From the NCBI GenBank assembly GCA_947385425.1, contig CANDKY010000024.1, forward strand, positions 1 to 42,722: 42,722 nucleotides of DNA. The letters are read 5' to 3'. Each line of letters opens with the position of its first letter. Position 1 is the stretch's first letter. This document shows, one piece after another, positions 6,079 to 10,546 of this stretch. Origin of the DNA: an uncultured Lachnospiraceae bacterium (GTDB lineage Bacteria > Bacillota > Clostridia > Lachnospirales > Lachnospiraceae). The notes under the pieces were generated by a model that was not told the DNA's origin, searched no databases, and worked only from the letters and a program-made list of their open reading frames with translations. Position numbers and translations under genes: made by a program.

Positions 6079-7051
6079 ACAGCCCCCTTACCGATACTTC
6101 TCCTGCATACACCATCACTGTTTCACCCGCCTGATTTTCTACCAGAAGCTCTCCGGATGCATTGATCCCCCTTGCAATGCCTTCCCACTCCCCCTTAGGA
6201 TCAAGAATGCGCACCTGGCTGTCCCGGTTGACCAGACAGGCATCATAATCCGCTACCATGGAACTCATGTCCAGATCCCGCGCGTATTTTTCATAATTCT
6301 GTTCAAATTTTTTCAGCACTGCCTGCAGCAGCGCCGCCCTCGCCGTCTTCTTCCCGCTTTCCAGGAAAAGAGAGGTGGCCGTTTCCCTTATCTCCTCCGG
6401 CATCACCTCCAGATTCACATTGATACCTACCCCGGTCACCACATGCTGGATATAATCCCTTTCCACTGACATCTCCGTCAGAATGCCGCATATCTTCTTT
6501 CCGTTCATTACCACATCATTCGGCCACTTAATCCCCGCCTCCAGGCTGCACTCCGCCCCTATTGCCTGTACAACGGAAAGCGCCATGGCCAGCGTCAGAC
6601 CGGCCGCCTTATCCGGCGGGAATTCCGGACGCAGCAGAATGGTAAAATAAATATCCTTTCCCGCAGGCGATTCCCATGTACGCCCCCGCCTTCCCCGGCC
6701 GGCATTCTGCTTATCCGCCACCACTACCGTGCCGTGTGGAGCGCCTGCTTCTCCCAGGGATTTCGCATCCGCATTGGTAGATCCCGTCTCCTCATAAAAA
6801 TATATTTCCTTCCCTGCCCAACGGTTGCGGATACGGCTTTTTAGTTCATTCAGGGAAAGCACATCCGGATTTTCCACCAGCATATACCCCCTGTTCCGCA
6901 CCGCCTCTATGACATATCCTTCCTCCTGCAGTTGCTTCATCACTTTCCAGACAGCCGTCCTGGACACATGAAAATGATCGCAAAGCTCCTGGCCGGAGAT
7001 ATAATCCCCGCTTTCCCGCAGAAAAGTCAGAATCTCAGATTTCATAGCCAT
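6065..7051 (-). CDS. birA: Bifunctional biotin protein ligase / biotin operon repressor
   Basis: Attaches biotin to carboxylase carrier domains through biotinyl-AMP. The N-terminal winged helix (about residues 8-55, with SGQELCDHFHVSRTAVWKVM) makes this a group II BirA able to bind DNA. The catalytic domain shows the TGSTN motif, the biotinyl-AMP loop GRGRRGRTWESP, the IKWPNDV motif and a C-terminal SH3-like domain (VRILDPKGEWEGIARGI). The frame reaches 7081, but the ATG at 7051 (MAMKSEIL) has GGGAG seven bases upstream and sits five bases after argF, giving 328 residues. No biotin synthesis gene is in view, so any repressor target lies elsewhere. Confidence 0.95.
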   Translation of the reverse strand: MAMKSEILTFLRESGDYISGQELCDHFHVSRTAVWKVMKQLQEEGYVIEAVRNRGYMLVENPDVLSLNELKSRIRNRWAGKEIYFYEETGSTNADAKSLGEAGAPHGTVVVADKQNAGRGRRGRTWESPAGKDIYFTILLRPEFPPDKAAGLTLAMALSVVQAIGAECSLEAGIKWPNDVVMNGKKICGILTEMSVERDYIQHVVTGVGINVNLEVMPEEIRETATSLFLESGKKTARAALLQAVLKKFEQNYEKYARDLDMSSMVADYDACLVNRDSQVRILDPKGEWEGIARGINASGELLVENQAGETVMVYAGEVSVRGLYGYV

Positions 7052-9748: not shown

Positions 9749-9838
9749 TATGACATCCCGTATATTTTTCCATACATGCAAAAACCGCTATAGTTCACTC
9801 CCCCTTAGCGGCATATTTCCACTGCATGGGCTGTGCAT

Positions 9839-9875
9839 AAAAAAACCTGCAGCCCTTTCCGCCACAGGTTTTTAT
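9839..9875 (-). terminator. Terminator after the tandem small peptide genes
   Basis: On the minus strand AAAAACCTG and CAGGTTTTTTT flank a 15-base loop and end in a T run. It lies 49 bases after the second small gene and before the NfeD promoter, so the peptide genes form a closed unit. The flanking A and T tracts would let it work in both directions. Confidence 0.75.
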
Positions 9876-9923: not shown

Positions 9924-10070
9924 TCAGAATACCCTCGGAGATACATTCAGCAGCGCAAAAGAATTTCTCTTCAGCATTTCCGCCGGCTCATCTTCATTAC
10001 CCACATGGTTTAAAACAACCAGATTCTTCACGAAATAGTTTTCTAACATATTCTTCACATAATTTTTCAT
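9924..10070 (-). CDS. Small 48-residue peptide, paralog 2 of a tandem pair
   Basis: Not recognised. The frame starts MKNYVKNMLENYFVKNLV and ends LKRNSFALLNVSPRVF; about 33 of 48 residues match the upstream paralog. GAGAGG lies nine bases before the ATG at 10070; an in-frame ATG at 10076 is closer to that site and less likely. The N-terminal half is an amphipathic helix with lysines and bulky hydrophobics, the middle is acidic (GNEDEPAE), and the C-terminus is a conserved SPR-x-F tail. There is no signal peptide or cysteine. It lies 92 bases after the paralog and before a terminator. That two copies keep an open frame and ribosome site while diverging supports a real gene. Confidence 0.72.
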   Translation of the reverse strand: MKNYVKNMLENYFVKNLVVLNHVGNEDEPAEMLKRNSFALLNVSPRVF

Positions 10071-10162
10071 ATCCATATACCTCTCTCTCTTTTTTTACCT
10101 TATCTGCTATCATTTTCATACTTATTCAATTTTTATTTCCGCACTTTTTTACCGCTTTTCCC

Positions 10163-10309
10163 TTAGAAGGCCCTCGGGGACACATTCAGCAGCGTATAGG
10201 AATTTCTTTTAAGCACCTCTGCAGAATTTTCTTCATTCCCGACATGCCCTAAGATAACCAGATTCCTTACAAAATAATTTTCTAACATATTCTTCATATA
10301 ATTTTTCAT
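10163..10309 (-). CDS. Small 48-residue peptide, paralog 1 of a tandem pair
   Basis: Not recognised. The frame starts MKNYMKNMLENYFVRNLV, continues through a GHVGNEENSAEV middle and ends LKRNSYTLLNVSPRAF. GAGGT is about eight bases before the ATG at 10309. Differences from the second copy are mostly conservative (K/R, V/I, D/E), as expected under protein-level selection. It follows the hydrolase gene and its terminator by about 170 bases, with an inverted repeat and possible promoter at 10436-10454. The Y-x-x-L-N-V core loosely recalls the repeated YLDTLNV motif at the N-terminus of the neighbouring hydrolase; that may be chance. Signalling, toxin-like or peptide-product roles are all open. 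Confidence 0.72.
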   Translation of the reverse strand: MKNYMKNMLENYFVRNLVILGHVGNEENSAEVLKRNSYTLLNVSPRAF

Positions 10310-10435
10310 AATCAGCACCTCTTTCTTCCTTTCGGATTATCGTTTATACTCTGGAAACCTTTCTTTTTGATTTCCCTGTGTTCTGTTTACATTATGGATA
10401 ATACTCCATTATCGACACCATAACCAGATACTTTG

Positions 10436-10454
10436 TTGACTTCTTTTAAGTCAA
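10436..10454. promoter_or_regulatory. Inverted repeat with promoter-like hexamer upstream of the small peptide genes
   Basis: TTGACTTCTTTTAAGTCAA is a perfect dyad of two 7-base arms around a 5-base centre, 127 bases upstream of the first peptide gene. On the minus strand the arm TTGACT could be a -35 box, with a weak -10 (ATCTGG or TATCTG) 17-18 bases on. The arrangement suggests a repressor site over a promoter. This is inference. Confidence 0.45.
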
Positions 10455-10481
10455 TATTGATATAAATTTAAATACAATAAT

Positions 10482-10505
10482 AAGCCGGCCACAAGTGGCC
10501 GGCTT
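10482..10505 (-). terminator. Terminator after the cell-wall hydrolase gene
   Basis: AAGCCGGCCAC and GTGGCCGGCTT form a perfect 11-bp stem, followed on the minus strand by an AT-rich, T-containing tract. It lies 42 bases after the hydrolase stop and separates that gene from the small peptide genes. Confidence 0.8.
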
Positions 10506-10546
10506 AAAACCGCAATTATCTCTTTCTTCTCATCCTTTACCGGAAA

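Follow-up and report, generated by a model that had tools for sequence, protein, structure and literature searches.

Many small bacterial proteins are orphans that offer no functional handle. One that has a described role is SgrT, a small protein brake of sugar uptake. On the regulatory side, AraC/XylS activators of glycosidase operons are of a kind known in Bacillota. The closest known system to the one described here is ANR/Aar of enteroaggregative Escherichia coli. As far as the cited parts of two reports describe them (PMC4038620, PMC5570504), these are helical proteins of 39–80 residues that are activated by the AraC regulators to which they bind; their genes are sometimes divergent from an AraC gene, and some genomes have two copies.

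Here we describe a tandem pair of genes for 48-residue peptides, P2 and P1, in the window, the 42,722-nt stretch of DNA from an uncultured Lachnospiraceae bacterium that was analyzed, together with the peptide family and the operator to which they belong. The peptides resemble ANR proteins in their small size, at 48 residues, and in their helices, predicted at low to moderate confidence at residues 2–22 and 26–43. The ANR sequence model NF033650, however, gave no hit above cut-off in the window genome, with 14 control genomes likewise giving none, and neither P2 nor P1 had an NCBIfam match at thresholds as loose as E=10; the family is therefore not a member of ANR, even if by analogy it may work like one. 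It also differs in occurring in Bacillota rather than in Gram-negatives, and in that several peptide groups with no detectable homology are found under one operator, whose significant matches in five genomes lie at micropeptide genes only.

The likeness to SgrT, drawn by description only, lies in a short, predicted cytoplasmic protein, a carbon-related regulator, and carbohydrate or importer genes as neighbors at eight loci (type-A loci, see below); the differences are the AraC-type operator and the lack of a demonstrated small RNA partner or target. The linked regulator has the AraC_binding and HTH_18 domains found in activators of glycosidase operons, but its recognized targets are micropeptides instead of enzymes, and two glycosidase-linked relatives fall outside its group in the regulator tree. 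With this system, the concept of small proteins tied to AraC regulators would reach beyond Gram-negative pathogens into commensal Bacillota of the gut.

The gene pair and its surroundings

P2 and P1 are transcribed in that order from the minus strand (Table 1). As an initial annotation of the sequence had recognized, the two frames are of equal length and each is preceded by a ribosome site; the start position of P2 was fixed by comparison, as all 35 copies of the family start with ATG. The close relationship between the two products was also seen correctly, but their identity is 77% and not about 70%. The 29 nucleotide differences between the genes are distributed 7/4/18 over the first, second, and third codon positions, which corresponds to a nonsynonymous divergence of 0.120 and a synonymous divergence of 0.514 per site (dN/dS 0.15; Fisher p=1.6e-5). 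P2 and P1 are protein-coding genes under purifying selection, and we read them as a single transcription unit. A search with Rfam returned no match in the window, the P2 leader included. Two flanking terminators had been proposed; a terminator scan recovered the upstream one, and the downstream one was recognized by eye only.

Table 1. Features of the P2–P1 cassette in window coordinates
Feature	Position	Strand	Remarks
P2, first gene of the pair	10163..10309	-	ATG at 10309, stop at 10163 included; 48 aa; MKNYMKNMLENYFVRNLVILGHVGNEENSAEVLKRNSYTLLNVSPRAF
P1, second gene of the pair	9924..10070	-	ATG at 10070, stop at 9924 included; 48 aa; MKNYVKNMLENYFVKNLVVLNHVGNEDEPAEMLKRNSFALLNVSPRVF
5' untranslated leader of P2	10310..10391	-	about 80 nt; small predicted hairpin; P2 ribosome site GGAAGAAAGAGGTG
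P2–P1 spacer	10071..10162	-	92 nt; contains the P1 ribosome site; without an operator of its own
AraC-type operator and promoter of the pair	10377..10466	-	nearly gapless alignment to 14 further peptide operons
Terminator of the upstream cell-wall hydrolase gene; upstream cassette edge	10481..10506	-	terminator scan
Terminator-like stem and T run 3' of P1; downstream cassette edge	9838..9874	-	by eye; absent from scan output

Neither peptide contains cysteine, both carry the C-terminal motif LLNVSPRxF, and by eye neither has a signal peptide or a membrane segment; the first two points and the missing signal peptide agree with the initial annotation. It placed an amphipathic helix at the N-terminus, but the strongest 18-residue hydrophobic moment begins at residue 31. 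The maximal moment of the window peptides is 0.44–0.47, and their mean hydrophobicity does not exceed 0.33 over 17 residues. The helices given above come from an AlphaFold prediction with a mean pLDDT of 65, a weak model; a Foldseek search with it found no structural match.

The neighboring cell-wall hydrolase had been considered as a companion of the pair. In the genus, NfeD was detected in 14 of 16 genomes, and all 13 sister species having NfeD also have the hydrolase and SPFH genes in place. The interval between the hydrolase and NfeD genes measures roughly 110–377 nt in the sister species (lengths from 10 of the 13) versus 874 nt in the window genome, and none of the 13 has a strong peptide match. 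We rejected the hydrolase as a partner because all 13 comparable species keep the interval without the pair. The pair is a cassette between two conserved transcription units, present in this species only among the genomes examined.

A family of 48-residue peptides

Five family copies are found in the window genome: the window pair, a second tandem pair on contig C22, and a single gene on contig C1. Among 98 genomes (its own, 15 congeners, and 82 further relatives), it alone gave a strong peptide match, the others reaching E=0.07 or worse. A peptide profile searched across 397 genomes of the bacterial family found strong matches in three, relatives of which contributed two more, and a scan of named genomes with a 12-sequence alignment yielded 12 loci; with a single sequence, a scan of named genomes gave no match. 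In total, the family comprises 35 copies in 10 genomes, a count that leaves out five loci repeating others (L068, L069, L071, L072, and L074). The carriers apparently include Parablautia intestinalis and P. muri; the window genome apart, the others are uncultured isolates or MAGs, mostly of Lachnospiraceae.

All 35 copies keep the ATG start and an open frame. Thirty-two encode 48 residues, one 46 and two 41, which rules out a fixed length of 48 for every copy. The 41-residue variants (L066:6163-6285 and 6369-6491) show a gap in the first helix and stand in tandem behind a 48-residue copy. Synonymous change exceeds nonsynonymous change in all 496 pairs formed by the 32 copies of exactly 48 residues. 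Residues M1, K2, N16, E31, N36, N42, V43, P45, R46, and F48 are invariant; conservation is highest at the C-terminus, and there is neither a conserved cysteine nor a variable core. The proposal of a duplicated peptide family under selection was thus borne out: missing homologs, frameshifts in relatives, or a dN/dS near 1 had been named as signs against it, and none of these spoke against the family, which has 35 copies, all with an open frame, and the low ratio given above.

The expectation that the peptides belong to no known family was likewise confirmed in Pfam, NCBIfam, and PHROGs, where no match was meaningful (the best, in Pfam, had E=0.13); a PDB sequence search gave chance-level matches only. 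A phage or plasmid origin was discarded, as P1 had no match in phage and plasmid records and the family alignment had none in viral contigs. Titles and abstract beginnings among the matches listed by a full-text literature search contain no description of the family, subscription journals and preprints lying outside that search. As far as these searches go, the 48-residue family is new to science.

A shared AraC-type operator

A common layout among AraC activators is a pair of direct half-sites that are spaced by two turns of the helix and adjoin the -35 region. A 90-bp operator-promoter is common to all 15 peptide operons that are not led by a distant AraC (see below), four of which have no adjacent AraC. 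Its pattern is RTCAATATYGMC-N9-RTCAA, with TCAA direct repeats 21 bp apart, followed by a -10 box and, near the expected transcription start, by the conserved sequence TGTAA. In the window, the half-sites lie at 10460-10457 and 10439-10436, 21 bp apart; the -10 box TATTAT (10403-10398) and the TGTAA at 10391-10387, the probable transcription start, were both assigned by eye. The inverted-repeat promoter noted initially is indeed conserved, but it is part of this operator, which emerged from the comparison of upstream regions across loci that the initial annotation had suggested; neither the shared operator nor the AraC regulator, encoded on other contigs of the window genome, had been noticed. 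The operator, the start region, and the beginning of the leader are highly conserved, and many copies have a predicted hairpin in the leader. Family copies without an operator of their own trail another copy by 69–295 nt on the same strand and, from this arrangement, are read as belonging to tandem operons.

When five genomes were searched with an operator model (R1), 12 sites scored E<1e-3. The training set accounts for nine of them, all known peptide operons and the window pair among them (E=6.8e-21); each of the three new ones is followed by the gene of another micropeptide (47, 57, and 61 residues). The single weaker match that was inspected (E=0.04) falls within a long gene. In the window genome (G000), C89:16133-16215 and C31:681-746 (L144, L145) mark orphan micropeptide genes of 47 and 61 residues with other sequences and the same operator.

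Linkage to a cupin-AraC regulator

At eight loci in eight genomes, the type-A loci, the peptides divergently adjoin a regulator of the AraC family with a cupin-type N-terminus. The domain assignment was tested on the regulator of contig C1, which matched PF12833 (E=1.6e-23), PF00165 (E=7e-18), and PF02311 (E=5.1e-6), all above cut-off, and which accordingly has both the HTH_18/HTH_AraC DNA-binding domain and the AraC_binding N-terminus that characterize the AraC/XylS family. In a search of the 397 genomes that scored at most six candidates per genome, this AraC subtype (69–100% identity) occurred in exactly the three genomes with strong matches to the 48-residue peptide, the next relative having 51% identity. 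The window pair is an orphan copy, in trans to the regulator. Within the stretches examined, no such AraC was found at four loci: the window, C22, L065, and L076. A distant AraC, scoring 59–75 bits versus 477–647, adjoins the peptide at three loci (L073, L075, and L092), which lack the shared operator. By eye, L073 and L092 seem to have a different common sequence upstream of the peptide, and the regulator may have been swapped there.

Carbohydrate-type or importer genes neighbor all eight type-A loci. They include family 31 glycosidases (L031, L064, L067, and L090), family 13 glycosidases (L031 and L090), a family 38 alpha-mannosidase (L066 and L070), and an Opp-type ABC importer (L031, L063, and L091); identities were tested at L031, L063, L066, and L070 and recognized by eye at the remaining loci. 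The 1,038-residue neighbor in L066, which has a relative in L070, was at first a candidate beta-galactosidase, an assignment that Pfam replaced by GH38 alpha-mannosidase. The gene names TetR, RecG, Mfd, and, at the weak sites described below, glycoside hydrolase family 3 were assigned by eye.

A tree of 30 selected AraC rows, rooted by midpoint only, places those whose genome or locus has the operator in a single group of 23 with support of 89/99, the first value being below the usual 95. Two rows linked to glycosidases lie outside this group, as do three whose genomes gave no operator match and two of the three distant AraCs. The AraCs that adjoin the 48-residue peptide form a subgroup of eight with support of 100/100. 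The second AraC of the window genome, on contig C33, belongs to the group of 23 and has no adjacent peptide; the genome has two orphan operator-led micropeptides. In four genomes (G189, G245, G374, and G376), the operator is located on another contig than the grouped AraC; in G376, where the contig ends, the operator was seen without a peptide. Where the AraC and a micropeptide operator were found together, they are mostly divergent, with two co-directional cases (G284:C9 and G405).

Sixteen of the 18 genomes with an operator site at E<=1e-5 also have an AraC match at E<=1e-47, against 19 of all 397. When the nine genomes behind the training sites, some of which had been found via their AraC, are left out, an AraC match accompanies the operator in 7 of 9 genomes, compared with 10 among all 388 (p=1.7e-11). 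G426 has an operator site and no AraC match at E<=1e-30. In G043 (L153, L194), the AraC frame breaks off at about residue 130, and its neighboring peptide lacks the start region in comparison with the relative G399, while the operator is intact; judged from these sequences, AraC and micropeptide have decayed in parallel.

Other micropeptides under the same operator

In a first look at AraCs of 36–51% identity in genomes without the 48-residue peptide, six of 10 loci showed a small gene with a ribosome site nearby and the same operator. A general operator model built from 23 sites (R2) was searched in the 397 genomes under strict filters and gave 41 sites in 33 genomes at E<=1e-3. At E<=1e-5 there were 26, of which 23 precede a small ORF: seven precede 48-residue peptides, 15 other small ORFs of 28–78 residues led by a ribosome site, and one a 70-residue ORF with a weak ribosome site (G251). 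The rest comprise one decayed gene (G043), one cut by the contig end (G376), and one without a clear small ORF (G189:C59). This last site (G189:C59:17028-17110, L190) is strong and lies just upstream of an opposite-strand, regulator-like frame of 839 codons.

Fourteen of the 26 sites had served to train R2, six of them having been found beside AraC matches, and one more had served to train R1, which leaves 11 new ones. Six of the 10 testable new sites satisfied a strict distance-plus-ribosome-site rule, compared to 3.0% of intergenic positions (p ~1.5e-7), with the rule (a 95–140 nt window and ribosome-site patterns) having been set after the sites had been seen. At G262, and wherever several small frames fitted, we chose the frame resembling the others. 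The p-values are optimistic because of training overlap, thresholds set post hoc, and the kinship of the genomes. Searching 15 locus stretches with R2 returned, near glycosidase or importer genes, only the peptide operators and two weak matches. The latter, at E 0.0016 and 0.016, are on the minus strand of L066 and overlap its two operators, one each. In a class-wide sample, sites at E<=1e-4 occurred in two of 361 genomes, both in the window's family.

A second group of micropeptides, of which four sequences were tested, is also under purifying selection. For its 57-residue member from P. muri, AlphaFold predicted helices at residues 20–42 and 48–56, again in a weak model (mean pLDDT 65). A Y...N motif seen by eye had raised the idea that the 48-residue family is homologous to the other micropeptides, which was dropped at an hhalign probability of 1.4%. 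As the groups are not detectably homologous, a common function rests on the shared operator only.

Proposed mechanism and alternatives

We propose an AraC-commanded micropeptide regulon in which the pair is one operon and the peptides are intracellular and bind a partner protein, a reading that we hold with a little less than even confidence. A cupin-AraC encoded elsewhere in the genome would bind the two TCAA direct repeats, 21 bp apart, beside the -35 region and would sense a ligand, perhaps a glycoside, via its N-terminal cupin domain. The bound regulator would switch on micropeptide operons near and far, with genes single or in tandem; their short helical products would stay in the cytoplasm and act by binding a protein, and several copies at several places would raise the peptide dose. 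Sequence comparison establishes selection on the genes, their common operator, the AraC linkage, and one joint decay; activation rather than repression, the cytoplasmic location, and protein binding we infer. As to the partner, our guess is that the peptides serve as small brake or adaptor proteins, perhaps in the uptake or breakdown of carbohydrates. Whether the arrangement amounts to a new class of signaling circuit, with a cupin-AraC sensor group, an output of micropeptides only, unrelated families swapped under one operator, and scattered cassettes, we regard as possible, if somewhat short of probable. Its operator is a searchable signature: within one family of gut bacteria it picks out unrelated micropeptide genes and connects them with a single kind of sensor, and their function therefore becomes testable.

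An ANR-like feedback, in which the AraC activates each micropeptide and this binds the AraC and shuts its own regulon, as Aar does with AggR, is a possibility that we consider rather doubtful. The layout is that of ANR in the cited parts of the reports, with small, helical products under activation by an AraC, from whose gene theirs sometimes diverge (PMC4038620, PMC5570504); peptide family and AraC subtype track together in the eight-row subgroup, and in G043 both decay jointly. Yet the significant operator matches in five genomes lie before micropeptides only, and, barring missed targets, an activator that controls nothing but its own inhibitor would serve no purpose, which counts against feedback. 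Moreover, the 48-residue peptide also adjoins distant AraCs, and unrelated micropeptides occur under one operator in one genome, even though a second member of the AraC group is encoded there. Between the peptides as output arm of the regulator and a pure AraC feedback, the former appears somewhat more likely. It is favored by strong sites mostly preceding micropeptides; the latter is favored by the correspondence of AraC subtype with peptide type.

Other kinds of product fit the family less well. Phenol-soluble modulins are tandem, multicopy, short helical peptides without a signal sequence, and the resemblance of this layout speaks for a secreted or membrane-active peptide (a signal, or modulin-like or bacteriocin-like); the low hydrophobicity and modest moment of the window peptides, the lack of an exporter common to the loci by eye, and the concentration of conservation at the C-terminus make it improbable. 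The short, tandem genes with their conserved C-terminal motif are also reminiscent of a RiPP precursor or an AgrD-like cyclic-peptide signal. In the ORF lists of the loci, read by eye, no maturase, protease, AgrB-like gene, or common exporter was recognized, and with neither a conserved cysteine nor a variable core, and with no match in Pfam or NCBIfam, this reading has very little probability. A secreted, membrane-active, or modified peptide, the last two of which had been suggested initially, is not supported on these grounds, and there is also no leader sequence. Equally remote is the notion that RNA is the functional product, of a dispersed promoter-leader cassette with an incidental frame: it could draw on the conserved operator, start region, and leader beginning and on the predicted hairpins, but it is at odds with the 496 pairwise comparisons, the start codon and frame kept in every copy, and the Rfam result.

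Weaker operator sites

Between E=1e-5 and 1e-3, R2 gave 15 sites, 12 of which were inspected. Among these, one stands before a micropeptide (G374), and at five the gene that follows is large and glycosidase-like. Relatives of this AraC therefore also seem to control enzymes, and large glycosidase-like genes are possibly the ancestral target type of the operator. The five operator-like sites before large genes, by eye family 3 glycosidases, are at L162, L164, L165, L166, and L171, and in G413 and G099 an AraC relative adjoins the weak glycosidase-linked site.
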